Origin: Claveliimonas monacensis | GTDB taxonomy: Bacteria > Bacillota > Clostridia > Lachnospirales > Lachnospiraceae | Assembly: GCF_014982975.1 (NCBI RefSeq) | Contig: NZ_JADCKL010000008.1 | Coordinates: forward strand, 37,161 to 101,160 | DNA: 64,000 nt | Direction of reading: 5' to 3' | Part shown: in pieces, positions 17,215 through 64,000 of the stretch | How positions within the stretch are numbered: position 1 is the first letter of the stretch | Layout of the letters: every line of letters begins with the position of its first letter | Notes under the pieces: model-generated | The model's input: the letters and a program-made list of their open reading frames with translations, nothing else | What the model was told of the DNA's origin: nothing | Database searches by the model: none | Made by a program: the position numbers and the translations under genes

Positions 17215-17480
17215 TTTACGTGCATTGCGCTTCGAACCAGGCCAACAGACGTTACCTTGGCAGTTTACTCAACCCAGGCACCCTCACGGCACCCGGAAGG
17301 TTCCGCTTAGTGCTGCTTCGTTCCCGACCTGACACGGTTCACGGATTTCCGTCGCGTGAGACCCGGATATCAACGTCACTTACCAAGGGCAGCTCTGCCA
17401 GCTGTCGCCCTCCGCGCAATATCACCCCTGCTATAGCGGACTGCAGGTACAAGGCACCGCTACCGCCCCGGCTGCACGAG
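17215..17480 (-). ncRNA. ffs: Signal recognition particle RNA (large, Alu-containing type)
   Basis: Read on the minus strand, the segment contains the highly conserved SRP helix 8 sequence GTGTCAGGTCGGGAACGAAG and the matching strand GAGGGTGCCTGGG, plus a 5' portion (GGGGCGGTAGCGGTG...) and a 3' closing part consistent with the roughly 265-nt Gram-positive SRP RNA with Alu domain. It would bind Ffh for co-translational targeting. Ends are approximate: the 5' end follows a promoter at 17486-17514 and the 3' end precedes the terminator at 17141-17188. Confidence 0.93.
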
Positions 17481-22660: not shown

Positions 22661-22703
22661 AAAAAGAGAGTGCGCGGATCAAAGATCAGCGCACTCTCTT
22701 TTT
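22661..22703. terminator. Bidirectional terminator between the beta-propeller gene and bioY
   Basis: AAAAAGAGAGTGCGC (22661-22675) pairs perfectly with GCGCACTCTCTTTTT (22689-22703). The right arm also encodes the last residues of BioY. Confidence 0.88.
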
Positions 22704-23246
22704 CAGGACAGGCCCAAATGCCACTGCAAGGGCGATCTTGACAGCGTCTCCGGGGAGATAGGGGATGACACCGGTGAACAGCCCTGCTGTGAAGCTTAAG
22801 TTCAGCTGGAGACAGAGCCAGGCTGTGCCAAAGGCGTAGGTCACCGCCATGCCCAGCACCATGCCCACTGTACAGGCGCTCCGCTTCCAGTGGAAATGCT
22901 CGGCAAAGAGCCCGCCGATCACAGTCAGGAAGATGAACCCGATCAGATATCCGCCGGTTGGGCCTGCAAACTTTCCGACGCCGCCGGAAAATCCGGAAAA
23001 GACAGGAAGCCCGCACAGTCCCAGCAGAAGATAGATGATAAAGCTGGCTGTAGCCTTTTTCCATCCCAACAGGAAGATGGAGATCTCCAGCACGAAATTC
23101 GTCAGGGTCAGAGGGACAGGGCTGAAGGGAATCGGAATGGACATGGGAGCCAGTATGCAGGTGACAGCGGTCATAAGAGCGGTAAGGACCAGGCTCTGTG
23201 TGGAGAGCCGGGAGGCGGACGACGCCTGATTGTTGGTTGAAGACAT
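22686..23246 (-). CDS. bioY: Biotin transporter BioY (ECF S component)
   Basis: ATG at 23246 on the minus strand preceded by AAGGAGGAT. The 186-residue integral membrane protein has about six helices and BioY signatures: LAPMSIPIPFSPVPLTLTNF near the N-terminus and GPTGGYLIGFI. BioY binds biotin and works with the shared EcfA/EcfT module of energy-coupling-factor transporters, which is not in the window. A BirA-type operator lies directly upstream, supporting biotin-dependent repression. An alternative upstream in-frame start at 23336 would cross that operator and is rejected. Confidence 0.93.
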   Translation of the reverse strand: MSSTNNQASSASRLSTQSLVLTALMTAVTCILAPMSIPIPFSPVPLTLTNFVLEISIFLLGWKKATASFIIYLLLGLCGLPVFSGFSGGVGKFAGPTGGYLIGFIFLTVIGGLFAEHFHWKRSACTVGMVLGMAVTYAFGTAWLCLQLNLSFTAGLFTGVIPYLPGDAVKIALAVAFGPVLKKRVR

Positions 23247-23449: not shown

Positions 23450-23478
23450 TTGACAAATAAAAGCGCAGGTGCTATCAT
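23450..23478 (+). promoter_or_regulatory. Strong extended -10 promoter of the structured RNA region
   Basis: TTGACA (23450-23455), 17 bases, TATCAT (23473-23478) with TG one base upstream of the hexamer. Initiation near 23485. No long ORF follows before the terminator at 24174. Confidence 0.85.
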
Positions 23479-23540
23479 ATAGTCAATCCAAAAAGAGATC
23501 TAATCCAAAATAAAACTTCTGACGAGAAAGGAAGTTTTAA

Positions 23541-23594
23541 ATGAAAAAGGAAAGATCTCAAAGCATAAATATTATGTATTTCATATGTCGGTGA
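23541..23594 (+). CDS. Possible 17-residue ORF inside the structured RNA
   Basis: ATG at 23541 after AAAGGAAG (23527-23534) encodes MKKERSQSINIMYFICR. It runs into the 17-bp stem. It may be a leader peptide or chance; unlike any peptide I recognise. Confidence 0.25.
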   Translation: MKKERSQSINIMYFICR

Positions 23595-23641
23595 GATATA
23601 TAGTATTTACAGGGAAATCAAACGGAAGGAGGCTTAATCCA

Positions 23642-23743
23642 TTGGACAATTCAGAATTTCATTTTCCATATGTCAGTGGTATGGCAGCAGACAGTTCCCA
23701 AAGAATAAGCCTTTATGATAGAAGGACCGATAAAGTTTTATAA
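23642..23743 (+). CDS. Possible 33-residue ORF inside the structured RNA
   Basis: TTG at 23642 is well spaced from GGAAGGAGG (23624-23632), the best Shine-Dalgarno in this transcript. The product begins MDNSEFHFPYVSGM and ends DRRTDKVL. No signal peptide, no cysteines, not recognised. The start overlaps the stem 23639-23648/23671-23679, so translation could compete with folding. Confidence 0.35.
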   Translation: MDNSEFHFPYVSGMAADSSQRISLYDRRTDKVL

Positions 23744-24173
23744 GGAAAATGATCGGAGTGTACAATATATCGGTATAAAAGATAATCGATAGAGCTGCAG
23801 ACATATCGGAACAGATACCACATATAGTTCAAAGATATTAGAAGATGTGTGAAGAAGCATCGAATAATATATCGGAATTTATATCAGGGAGCTGTATAAA
23901 ATATAAGTTATAGAAGGAATAGCTCAATATGGTTACAGACATAGTTATCGTAATAAGGGATGAGGCTGTAACAGCAACGGCTATAGATATTATAATAACT
24001 GAGGATATATTTTATACAGGTGATTATGAGGGCGATATAAATAAGTGATTTTGGAGATCTTGATCCGAACTTTGAGTTATAAATGTTCGAAGGGAAAGAG
24101 CAAAGGCTGGGAACCTGATCATCGACATTCATCCTCCGAGATAATATAAAAAATGATAAAATTTCATAAAAGA

Positions 24174-24214
24174 TAGCCACTATGACCAATAAAAGGATCG
24201 TAGTGGCTATTTTT
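24174..24214 (+). terminator. Terminator of the structured RNA
   Basis: TAGCCACTATGA (24174-24185) pairs with TCGTAGTGGCTA (24198-24209), one pair being G-U, followed by TTTTT (24210-24214). Confidence 0.88.
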
Positions 24215-24224
24215 GTGATATATT

Positions 24225-24253
24225 TTGACATTGACTACCCTGTATGATACACT
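24225..24253 (+). promoter_or_regulatory. Promoter of the TPR/P-loop gene
   Basis: TTGACA (24225-24230), 17 bases, TACACT (24248-24253) with TG one base upstream. It starts only 10 bases after the preceding terminator T-run. Confidence 0.65.
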
Positions 24254-24310: not shown

Positions 24311-27300
24311 TTGGATAAATATGAATATCGGGTTAAAACAGAGCAGATGCTTGAATACATGGAAAAAAAGCAGTACAAGAAAGCCATGGAGATCGCTGAC
24401 ACGATCGACTGGCGCCGCGTAAAAAATGCATCCATGCTCAATAATGTGAGTGAGATTTATGAATATAACGGGGAGTATCAGAAGAGCAGGGATGTATTGT
24501 TCATGGCCTACGACAGGGCTCCGGGGAGCAGGAAGACCGTGTACAGGCTGGGAACACTTGCTTTGAAGATCAATGACACAGATGAGGCTTCGGACTGCTA
24601 TGAAGAGTTTGTGAGACTGGCTCCGAAAGATCCCAATCAGTTCATCTTAAAATATAAAATACTGAAGGCCCGCCGAGCCCCTCTGTCTGAGCAGATCGAG
24701 GCTCTTGAAGATTTCAAGAAGGCAGAGTATGTAGAGAAATGGGCCTATGAGCTGGCAAAACTTTACCATGAGGCCGGTATGACTGCCGAGTGCCTGGAGG
24801 AGTGTGATGACCTGATCCTCTGGTTCAGTGAAGGGAAATATGTCTATCAGGCCATGGAACTGAAGATGAAATATAAGCCCCTGACTCCGCTTCAGCAGGA
24901 GAAGTACGACAGCATGCGGGGCGTATCTTCCCATGTCTCCCGCAGAGACGCTGCGGCAGAGGATGAAGTCCTTGAAGAGGAGGAGGCCGAAGACACCGCA
25001 GAGGAGGCGGAAGAGACAGCCATGGCGGAAGAGGTGCAGGAAACTTTTGAGCAGAGAGCTCCGGAGACTTCCGGTACCATTGACGCTGAGACAAGGGAGA
25101 TCCGTCTGGATGAGCTCCGGGCTGCCAGAGAGCAGGCTGCCGCGGCTGGTGCGGCTGTGGAAGAGACGGCTCGTGAACCGGAAGATCCTGACAGGAGCCA
25201 GAAGAAGGTCAAAGAAGAATCCCCCATCCGCAAAACCGTCAAGGGTGCTACGCTGGCGGAGGCGCTGGCCAACGGCGTTAAGGTTGCCAGCGGTATTGAC
25301 ATCGAGGATATTGAGAAGAAAGCAAGCCCCAAGCGGGATGAAGATATGCGCATCACAGGCCAGATGAAGATCGAGGAGATCCTGGCAGCCTGGGAGGCAA
25401 AACAGAAGGACAATGCCGAGGCCATTGAGGCCCAGAAAAAGCGGGATGAAGAGAAACTTGCCGAGAGGAAGCGGGAGGCTCAGCGCCGCCGTGAGGAGGA
25501 GGCAAGAAGGATAGAAGAACAGCAGCGAGCTGCCGAGGAGGCCAGAAGGATCGCAGAGCAGAAAGCTGCCGAGGAGGCCAGAAGGCTGGCAGAAGAGCAG
25601 GCGGAGCAGGAGAGACTTCTTGCAAAGCAGCGGGCTGATGAGGAAAAACGCCTTGCCCGCCAAAAGGCCGAAGAAGAGGAGGCGCTTTTGGATCGCATCG
25701 CTTCCGGTCAGGTGACTGCAGAACTGAAGGAAGCAGTAAAGAATGCATCTGCTCCTGAGGAAGAGGCAGAAGAGCCTGCAGCAGAGGAAGAAATTGTTGA
25801 GGCAGAGCTGACAGAAGAAGCTGCCGTAACAGAAGAAGCCGACTACGAGGAAGTTCCGGAAGAAGATGCATATGAGGAGGCTGACTACGAGGAGGCCCCG
25901 GAAGAAGATGCATATGAGGAGGCCGACTACGAGGAGGCCCCGGAAGAAGATGCATATGAGGAAGATGACTATGAGGAGCCTGCGGCAGAGGAGGAGCCGG
26001 AAGAGAAAGAGGAAACTCTGGCTACTGGCATGACTGCAGACCTGAGACAGCTTATGGAAGAGCTGGAGACAGAGGAGAAGCAGTCCGGCAAAAAGGACGA
26101 AGCCACAGACTTTGACGATGAATTCCAGGCTGCTTTTGCAGAAGAGTCCTATGAGGAAGCTGATCTGGAGGATGAGTACGACTACGAAGAAGCGGACTTT
26201 GAGGATGAAGATGACTACGAGGCGTCCGATTTCAAAGACGGGGAAGACTACGAGGAAGACAGCTTTGATGAGGAAGACTATGACGAGGATGGCTTCGACG
26301 AGGACAGCTTCGATGAGGACGGCTATGAGGAAGAAGACTACGATGAGGATGACCTTGTAGATGACTATGAAGACTATGATGATATAGACGAAGAAGACTA
26401 CGAGGACGATTTCTTTGATGAGGAAGAGGAAGAGATCCCGGAAGAGCCCGAGCCTAAGCTGACAAGAAAAGAGAAGCGCGCACAGAAGAAGGCAGAGAAA
26501 GAGGCTGCCAGACAGGCCAGAAAGACAGAGGAGCTTGTCATCGAAGAGCCTACGGAGGAGGAGATCCAGAGACGGATCCAGAAAGGGAAAGGCGGCGTGC
26601 CTTTTGACACCGGGTTTGTGGTGACAGGGCGCTATGACCTGAGCGCCACCAGTGAGATCGGCCTGAAGGCGGGACTTACTGAGGAGCAGAAGCAGCTCTT
26701 CTCCTATTTCGTTCCTGTCCGGGGCATGAGCGAGCAGATTGTGGAAGTGCTGGACAATGACCGCAGAGAGCGCAGGAACGGCACATCCCGCACCGGCAAT
26801 ATCCTGGTCATCGGACATAAAGGATCCGGCAAGACGGTCCTTGCTGTGGATATGGTAAAGGCTATCCAGAAGCAGAGGAACCTGAAGCAGGGCAAGGTGG
26901 CCATTGTGACAGGCGAGTCGCTGAACAAGAAAGATATCCCGAATATCATCCAGAAGCTCAGAGGCGGCGCCATCATCATTGAGAAGGCAGGAAAACTCAA
27001 TGCAAGGACAGTCCGGGAGCTGAACATCCTGATGGAGAAGAAGACCGGAGAGCTGCTGTTTGTGCTGGAGGACCAGAAGAAGGCGCTGGAGAGACTCTTT
27101 ACAGCCAATCCGGAGTTTAAGAAGAAATTTACATCCAGGCTGGAGCTTCCTGTATTTATCAACGATGAGCTGGTTACATTCGGGCAGACATATGCCAAGG
27201 AGAATGGATATAAGCTGGATGAGATGGGAATCCTGGCGCTGTACAGCCGGATTGATGTGATGCAGAGAGAAGATCACGCAGTGTCTGTGGCAGAGGTAAA

Positions 27301-27430
27301 GGAGATCATGGATGCGGCCATCGAACATTCCCAGAAGGCAAATGTGAAACATCTGGCCCGGAGAATGTTCCGCAAAGGAACGGACGAATCCGATCGGATA
27401 ATCCTGAAGGAAGACGATTTTAGGATCTAA
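24311..27430 (+). CDS. TPR, acidic-repeat and P-loop NTPase protein
   Basis: TTG 24311 chosen because GAGGTGAG (24299-24306) precedes it; an upstream TTG at 24275 lacks one. The 1039-residue protein has four parts: N-terminal TPR-like helices (about 1-205: KAMEIADTIDW, EIYEYNGEYQKSRDVLFMAYDRAP); a charged coiled coil (about 370-490, repeats of RRxEEEARRIAEQ type); an extremely Asp/Glu/Tyr-rich region (about 500-720), including three 14-residue tandem repeats; and a C-terminal P-loop domain (about 830-1039) with GHKGSGKT, a Walker-B-like AIIIEKAG and a tail SDRIILKEDDF. No signal peptide or membrane helix. Closest in spirit to AAA+ ATPases of the CbbX/SpoVK type, but I would not assign a function. 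Single gene between its own promoter and terminator. Confidence 0.8.
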   Translation: MDKYEYRVKTEQMLEYMEKKQYKKAMEIADTIDWRRVKNASMLNNVSEIYEYNGEYQKSRDVLFMAYDRAPGSRKTVYRLGTLALKINDTDEASDCYEEFVRLAPKDPNQFILKYKILKARRAPLSEQIEALEDFKKAEYVEKWAYELAKLYHEAGMTAECLEECDDLILWFSEGKYVYQAMELKMKYKPLTPLQQEKYDSMRGVSSHVSRRDAAAEDEVLEEEEAEDTAEEAEETAMAEEVQETFEQRAPETSGTIDAETREIRLDELRAAREQAAAAGAAVEETAREPEDPDRSQKKVKEESPIRKTVKGATLAEALANGVKVASGIDIEDIEKKASPKRDEDMRITGQMKIEEILAAWEAKQKDNAEAIEAQKKRDEEKLAERKREAQRRREEEARRIEEQQRAAEEARRIAEQKAAEEARRLAEEQAEQERLLAKQRADEEKRLARQKAEEEEALLDRIASGQVTAELKEAVKNASAPEEEAEEPAAEEEIVEAELTEEAAVTEEADYEEVPEEDAYEEADYEEAPEEDAYEEADYEEAPEEDAYEEDDYEEPAAEEEPEEKEETLATGMTADLRQLMEELETEEKQSGKKDEATDFDDEFQAAFAEESYEEADLEDEYDYEEADFEDEDDYEASDFKDGEDYEEDSFDEEDYDEDGFDEDSFDEDGYEEEDYDEDDLVDDYEDYDDIDEEDYEDDFFDEEEEEIPEEPEPKLTRKEKRAQKKAEKEAARQARKTEELVIEEPTEEEIQRRIQKGKGGVPFDTGFVVTGRYDLSATSEIGLKAGLTEEQKQLFSYFVPVRGMSEQIVEVLDNDRRERRNGTSRTGNILVIGHKGSGKTVLAVDMVKAIQKQRNLKQGKVAIVTGESLNKKDIPNIIQKLRGGAIIIEKAGKLNARTVRELNILMEKKTGELLFVLEDQKKALERLFTANPEFKKKFTSRLELPVFINDELVTFGQTYAKENGYKLDEMGILALYSRIDVMQREDHAVSVAEVKEIMDAAIEHSQKANVKHLARRMFRKGTDESDRIILKEDDFRI
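25838..25963 (+). repeat. Three tandem 42-base coding repeats
   Basis: Units at 25838-25879, 25880-25921 and 25922-25963 encode ADYEE(V/A)PEEDAYEE. Near-identical codons indicate recent duplication; copy number may vary between strains. Confidence 0.9.

Positions 27431-63596: not shown

Positions 63597-64000
<404 letters not shown>

Follow-up and report, generated by a model that had tools for sequence, protein, structure and literature searches.

A predicted large structured RNA of Lachnospiraceae, most likely undescribed, with a predicted micro-ORF running through its pseudoknot strands

What is encoded in the A/T-rich region at positions 23450–24214 of the window, i.e. the 64,000-nt stretch of Claveliimonas monacensis DNA analysed here? 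A consensus-like promoter and an intrinsic terminator delimit what looks like a free-standing unit in this region, and all plus-strand ORF starts within it give frames of less than 60 aa. A preliminary description, made from the letters alone, had read the promoter at 23450–23478, the terminator, an interval free of long ORFs and a large structured RNA. Indeed, both boundary sequences are present and plus-strand ORFs starting here are all short, and the fold z-score and the covariation reported below support the presence of a large structured RNA.

The locus, its context and its distribution

The features of the locus and its flanks are as follows.

~22686–23246, minus strand: BioY gene (PF02632), flanking the RNA locus on one side
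23450–23478, plus strand: predicted promoter with TTGACA (23450–23455), a 17-nt spacer ending in TGC and TATCAT (23473–23478), i.e. an extended -10 element
23484–24214, plus strand: predicted RNA of ~730 nt, spanning promoter to terminator (fold z -8.60)
24172–24214, plus strand: intrinsic terminator, GATAGCCACTATGA...TCGTAGTGGCTATTTTT
24311–27430, plus strand: downstream gene encoding a 1039-residue protein, with sub-cut-off matches to TPR_2 and NB-ARC (Pfam) and CbbX (NCBIfam) only

Similar boundaries recur in relatives: a TTGAC[ATC]-N15-20-TANNWT match lies at most 400 nt 5′ of the core in 52 of 60 of them, and the terminator stem holds several of the 12 pairs with two-sided changes in a consensus of six congeners. 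The length of the RNA ranges from 316 to 845 nt, with a median of 708 nt (36 members measured). Folding of positions 23485–24215 yielded -182 kcal/mol and a z-score of -8.60 for the plus strand as compared to a z-score of -3.85 for the minus strand, with none of 20 shuffles folding as well in either case. Folding is therefore beyond chance and the plus strand is favoured, in line with the strand assignment of the preliminary description.

A decayed protein gene, or the chance folding of A/T-rich DNA, would fit the base composition and the restriction to short ORFs. However, the z-score of -8.6 and the compensatory changes described below argue against either, as does the longest plus-strand ORF, which has a median of 36 aa and a maximum of 95 aa in the 42 of 77 members that could be measured (26 lacked a script-found terminator, the window's own included, and nine with an implausible terminator were dropped). 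We give this explanation hardly any credence; with pairing conserved and ORFs this short, the decayed coding gene that the preliminary description had named as a contrary outcome is not supported. On the minus strand, an antisense ORF of 107 aa (23908–24231) overlaps the 3′ half of the RNA, and the longest ORF has a median of 67.5 aa and a maximum of 151 aa in the 42 members measured.

Might the RNA instead be a long 5′ leader or attenuator of the gene that follows it, the TPR/CbbX-like gene or, elsewhere, an RluA-type pseudouridine synthase gene? By motif, the 3′ neighbour among 76 members is TPR/CbbX-like in 37 and RluA-like in five, which speaks for a leader; it is neither in 31 and too short to tell in three, all labels and classes having been assigned by eye and regex. 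Against a leader, in the window the terminator and then a separate TTGACA-N17-TACACT promoter (both by eye) stand between the RNA and the downstream gene, and the shared synteny is compatible with vertical descent. A leader function thus seems quite improbable. With one downstream gene common to about half of the members, the RNA might still act in cis. A functional tie to either gene was considered and set aside, with nothing beyond synteny (37/76 and 5/76) to connect them. Pfam checks covered the aconitase, BioY and downstream protein of the window plus two RluA-type proteins, and PF00849 was found in both RluA-like proteins scanned. The protein encoded at 24311–27430 has a very acidic middle and weak TPR and CbbX-like matches.

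As to distribution, a BLAST search with the stretch gave matches in 10 of 61 genomes, its own included: seven belong to the genus and one (G015) to a different one, and the two others, G030 and G055, have short matches that were judged chance on reading the sequence. A loose DNA pattern returned at least 118 stretches, 17 of which were retained after a promoter/motif filter and inspection; among the leftovers, L131 is the contig of L133 and the others were taken as chance without individual study. A sequence-only model built from 22 members (R1) matched 83 of 397 Lachnospiraceae genomes at E ≤0.01. A 97-position sequence profile of the 5′ core built from 72 members (R2) matched, at E 0.001, 88 of the 397 Lachnospiraceae genomes sampled (73 of the 320 of good quality; 74 of 334 genera), a count that is not independent because hits from this very sample went into the training of R2, and that includes the weakest matches (E near 0.001) without one-by-one inspection. 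The R2 match is single in 85 of these 88 genomes, with two each in G116, G147 and G333. Outside the family sample, R2 matched 7 of 11 genomes in the genus sample, 10 of 295 in the order sample, all ten of them Lachnospiraceae, and one of 249 in the phylum sample, namely the window's own; no R2 match thus fell outside Lachnospiraceae in the order and phylum samples, where it applies that searches over 40 genomes use stricter filters and lose weak members. Named carriers include Claveliimonas bilis, Mordavella massiliensis, Faecalicatena contorta, Suipraeoptans intestinalis and Ohessyouella blattaphilus.

Conserved helices and the pseudoknot core

The structural analysis drew on 77 members (60 loci from R1 hits plus 17 earlier loci), from which a 76-row set was made for the 5′ domain by removing the near-duplicate G007, and a 46-row set for 5′ plus 3′ by removing 31 members (26 without a regex-found 3′ motif, four with a G+C-rich flank, and G007); a 22-row alignment was scored as well. 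Helices were named after inspection of the same alignments that were used for scoring. In the window, the RNA comprises the following features, all on the plus strand.

23494–23501, plus: helix P0, 5′ arm AGAGATCT, pairing with 23553–23560; in the single-sequence fold
23512–23538, plus: 5′ hairpin with conserved loop UGACGAGAAAG (sequences by eye; six-congener alignment)
23553–23560, plus: helix P0, 3′ arm (single-sequence fold; two-sided changes in some congeners, by eye)
23567–23608, plus: long peripheral stem with loop GUCGGUGAG
23626–23632, plus: Shine-Dalgarno AAGGAGG, a conserved block in alignment A4 (72 members)
23630–23636, plus: helix s, 5′ arm AGGCTTA, overlapping the Shine-Dalgarno and pairing with 23706–23712
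23642–23743, plus: predicted micro-ORF, TTG start, 33 codons then TAA
23668–23674, plus: helix a, 5′ arm (pseudoknot stem 1), pairing with 23800–23806
23676–23682, plus: helix b, 5′ arm (pseudoknot stem 2), pairing with 23815–23821
23684–23688, plus: helix f, 5′ arm, pairing with 23794–23798
23694–23699, plus: helix c, 5′ arm GUUCCC, long-range pair with 24109–24114
23706–23712, plus: helix s, 3′ arm (permutation of partners; 22-row pairing)
23753–23758, plus: helix d, 5′ arm UCGGAG, pairing with 24134–24139
23794–23798, plus: helix f, 3′ arm (covariation, 46 rows)
23800–23806, plus: helix a, 3′ arm (covariation, 76-, 46- and 22-row sets)
23815–23821, plus: helix b, 3′ arm (covariation, 46- and 22-row sets)
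23844–23861, plus: hairpin h with loop GUGAAGAA (covariation, 46 rows)
23880–24082, plus: variable domain of long A/U-rich helices (six-congener consensus fold, some two-sided changes)
24109–24114, plus: helix c, 3′ arm GGGAAC (covariation, 46 rows)
24133–24139, plus: CCUCCGA, the helix d 3′ arm with an extra 5′ C; its CCUCC is anti-Shine-Dalgarno-like

From 5′ to 3′, the arms follow the order s, a, b, f, c, s′, d, f′, a′, b′, h, variable domain, c′, d′ and terminator, and a and b therefore form an H-type pseudoknot, with f inside it and c crossing. By eye, the variable domain is absent from the shortest members.

Covariance analysis among Lachnospiraceae relatives, which the preliminary description had suggested as a check, revealed compensatory changes in the 22-, 46- and 76-row alignments alike. 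In a scan of all column pairs over 76 rows, the top pair (23673–23801; z 22.9) fell in helix a. Over 22 rows, the named pseudoknotted structure had 91.6% of its cells paired versus 84.1% in shuffles and contained 43 two-sided cells versus 11.0 expected, a value reached by none of 500 shuffles, and slid partners paired at 25–46%. In the 46-row set, the same absence of matching shuffles (0/500 each) applied to helix a (305 of 321 cells paired, 95%; 22 two-sided), helix f (222/230, 96.5%; 32), helix b (289/308, 93.8%; 5), helix c (258/276, 93.5%; 25) and helix h (194/220, 88%; 20); over 22 rows, helix b was 97.4% paired, with two-sided changes at five of its seven pairs. Compensatory changes in these alignments show that the pairing of helices a, f, b, c and h is conserved.

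For the two remaining core helices the figures are of a different kind. Helix s had 245 of 317 cells paired over 46 rows with 13 two-sided (4/500 shuffles) and 85.4% paired over 22 rows with zero two-sided changes; over 74 members, pairing with its own partner exceeded that with permuted partners (0/200, z 7.2). Helix d is nearly invariant, with 275 of 276 cells paired (99.6%), two two-sided (1/500 shuffles) and a change from G-C to A-U at one pair in two members; its d/d′ motif is not recognisable in some members (e.g. RumL66, G292 and G273). Two further candidates were not adopted. Helix e (23726–23729/23771–23774), taken from the six-congener consensus, had 65 of 154 cells paired family-wide, no better than shuffles, and helix g (UUCAAAG/CUUUGAG) was kept as tentative: an exact-motif search finds its left arm in 23 of 76 members and the right arm in 16 of those 23, and pairing of its extension is weak (20 of 500 permutations as high).

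Nested predictions give a different picture. The minimum-energy fold of the single sequence contains c (five of six pairs), h and P0 and lacks s, a, b, f and d altogether, and the six-congener consensus contains c and e, folds the strands of a and b into local pairs and joins the Shine-Dalgarno to CCUCC in place of helix d. The pseudoknot core is missing from both. Although the methods exclude crossing helices and the congeners hardly vary there, this absence still weighs against taking the fold energy at face value.

The finer elements of the preliminary description fared unevenly. Its 17-bp stem (23567–23583/23592–23608) is found in the predicted fold and in the six-congener consensus and is missing from short members; being absent by eye from, for instance, G002 and Suipraeoptans, it is regarded as peripheral. 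Likewise, the pair it had drawn between GAGATCT at 23495 and AGATCTC at 23553 exists and is kept by two-sided changes in some congeners (e.g. GAAATCC/GGATTTC, by eye), but Mordavella pairs worse. The switch proposed to involve a second GAGATCT at 24054 found no support, because in the five congeners that copy is GAGATTT or another sequence, with which the pairing is impossible.

A micro-ORF within the pseudoknot

Beyond what the preliminary description had recorded, namely in addition to the pseudoknot and the 5′–3′ helices, a Shine-Dalgarno followed by TTG, ATG or GTG opens a micro-ORF that runs through pseudoknot strands a and b. The alignment-anchored spacing between the start and stem a is divisible by three in 70 of 74 readable members (77 minus G020 and G261, whose rows are cut short, and the near-duplicate G007), the exceptions being G116 (twice), G070 and Suipraeoptans. 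Among these 74, the start codon is TTG in 41, ATG in 28 and GTG in five, and 67 are in frame with no stop before stem a; intact micro-ORFs have 15–36 codons. On a FastTree tree built from the same short region as the micro-ORF counts, there are at least 18 length changes, at least four frame-class changes and at least 16 start-letter changes, the last always staying among A, T and G. Should 14 of the 18 length changes preserve the frame, P would be ~1.4e-4 against an expectation of one third, a value that is approximate because the counts come from separate parsimony runs.

The encoded residues follow another pattern. Between start and stem a, 172 close pairs differ by 0.31, 0.37 and 0.25 changes per site at codon positions 1, 2 and 3, respectively; with no third-position excess, the peptide sequence in this segment is therefore not conserved. 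The conserved QYxSGxA, in turn, is accounted for by pairing. Of the 15 members listed with the peptide QY-E-(S/G)-G-x-(A/I), 11 have a stop immediately after it. The ORF is off frame, stopped early or startless in G017, G020 (where direct reading finds no NTG at the start position), G070, G116 (both copies), G170 and G349, and it is ambiguous in Suipraeoptans, in frame by motif and off by alignment. On these comparative grounds, the short frame is likely translated, though most of its product's sequence would matter little, and likely translation of a drifting peptide points to the act of initiation.

Could the Shine-Dalgarno and NTG be structural elements or decoys that yield no peptide, the whole being a large structured RNA with no coding function at all, like OLE, ROOL, GOLLD or raiA? 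The strong covariation, the drift of the peptide and the loss of the ORF in several members would all agree with this, yet it leaves unaccommodated the preservation of the frame through at least 18 length changes (70 of 74 readable members), the confinement of starts to TTG, ATG and GTG, and the recurrent stop after the QY motif in 11 of the 15 members listed; we therefore consider it unlikely, albeit a serious contender. At the other extreme, the RNA might be a peptide-coding messenger, its micro-ORF product being the function and its structure controlling translation or stability. This would make it a dual-function RNA such as RNAIII or SgrS, which carry a short ORF on a separately transcribed RNA, as predicted here. 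The conserved initiation site and frame and the covering of the Shine-Dalgarno by helix s favour such a messenger; however, residues drift outside the paired segment, some members have lost the ORF and retained the RNA core, and covariation extends ~370 nt past the ORF (helix c), leaving this reading with a small share of the probability.

The members L221, L224, L229 and L141 form a second RNA sub-type, in which the micro-ORF stop comes right after QYESGxA and helix d was unrecognised; by motif, five members adjoin an RluA-type pseudouridine synthase gene.

Relation to known RNAs and a possible mechanism

Does the RNA belong to a described family? Scanning the whole window against 4227 Rfam models, with membership in Rfam 15 defined as a covariance-model match at the gathering score, returned only SSU (16S) rRNA and SRP RNA, both outside the locus. 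The raiA and OLE models were confirmed to be among those scanned, and those of ROOL, GOLLD and HEARO presumably are as well. At relaxed thresholds, the only matches at the locus were five sub-cut-off ones to eukaryotic families, all over the terminator hairpin (E 0.12–2.7). Likewise, no Rfam match was obtained in 12 relatives at the gathering score or in nine further relatives at E up to 1. When the own genome was searched with the raiA and OLE models, no match appeared, the controls likewise being without signal. Neither tmRNA (RF00023; ARAGORN likewise) nor 6S RNA (RF00013) was found in the window, and the genome's own copies lie elsewhere, on C9 and C12, respectively. No tRNA genes were found in the window, phage and plasmid records searched with the stretch gave no match, and 13 pattern matches on viral contigs were not retained as members after filtering. 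As side observations, the window ends in the first part of a 16S rRNA gene (63597–64000) and a large SRP RNA lies on its minus strand (17218–17479).

The accessible parts of the literature searched hold no published description of the RNA, which may figure as an unnamed candidate in large prediction sets (e.g. PMC8040213). With no Rfam model matching, the RNA class is most likely undescribed, consistent with the preliminary description, which had matched it to none of ROOL, GOLLD and OLE. The known large ornate RNAs resemble it in size and complexity, and, as far as membership could be tested, it belongs to none of them. With tmRNA it shares the combination of pseudoknots and a short ORF on one RNA; it differs in that the genome has a separate tmRNA and in that a Shine-Dalgarno belongs to the ORF here. 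OLE, ROOL and GOLLD are, according to PMC12286853, RNAs of this size class with complex folds, multiple pseudoknots in the case of ROOL, and a function yet to be found; unlike them, for whose models no match was seen here at the gathering score, the present RNA has a micro-ORF in its core. Moreover, ROOL and GOLLD are described as carried by phages and prophages, frequently close to tRNA islands (PMC12286853), whereas the window has no tRNA and the stretch no match in the phage or plasmid records searched. The raiA motif (ModT), described in PMC11706538 as a conserved structured clostridial RNA acting in trans, is alike in being conserved, structured and clostridial and would be alike in acting in trans, but its 209-position model was unmatched in the library scan. 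VcdRP (PMC8672173) is a dual-function RNA with a short ORF inside a separately transcribed regulatory RNA; in contrast to dual-function RNAs, the ORF here lies within a covarying pseudoknot and its peptide drifts.

The reading we prefer, and to which we assign an even chance, is that of an undescribed large multi-pseudoknotted RNA in which folding of the core and initiation on the micro-ORF would be mutually exclusive, i.e. a translation-gated structured RNA. The locus would be transcribed and the micro-ORF translated. When folded, helix s, which covers the Shine-Dalgarno, and stems a and b, which take up codons, would block initiation, and a ribosome on the micro-ORF would, in turn, hold the core open; because the Shine-Dalgarno and codons overlap s, a and b, ribosome and folded core should not coexist. 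The folded form would be the active one and would act in trans, as suggested by the separate promoter and terminator and the mixed neighbourhoods, possibly by scaffolding protein or RNA partners.

More tentatively, and with a probability that we place clearly below even, these features may define a new, ribosome-switched RNA class known only in Lachnospiraceae: initiation would keep the RNA open, at low initiation the Shine-Dalgarno, the codons and the 3′ end would lock into the active multi-pseudoknot, and the 3′ CCUCC would be a built-in anti-Shine-Dalgarno. Complementarity, together with the C before CUCCG, which has no partner in helix d and is kept in 43 of 46 members, hints that CCUCC may pair with the Shine-Dalgarno as an alternative to helix d.

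Few large complex bacterial RNAs are known, most of them still without an assigned function, and it is unusual for an ORF that keeps its frame to lie inside a covarying pseudoknot. The overlap of ORF and pseudoknot would provide a direct, falsifiable link between translation and the folding of a large RNA, which is testable given that the RNA occurs in culturable gut bacteria, including the complete-genome species C. bilis. Finally, a loop-like motif YGRYGAGA (UGACGAGAAAG, GUCGGUGAGA, CCCGACGAGAAAGCC) recurs by eye at 23520–23530, at 23587–23596 and in several relatives, and is possibly a protein or tertiary contact site.
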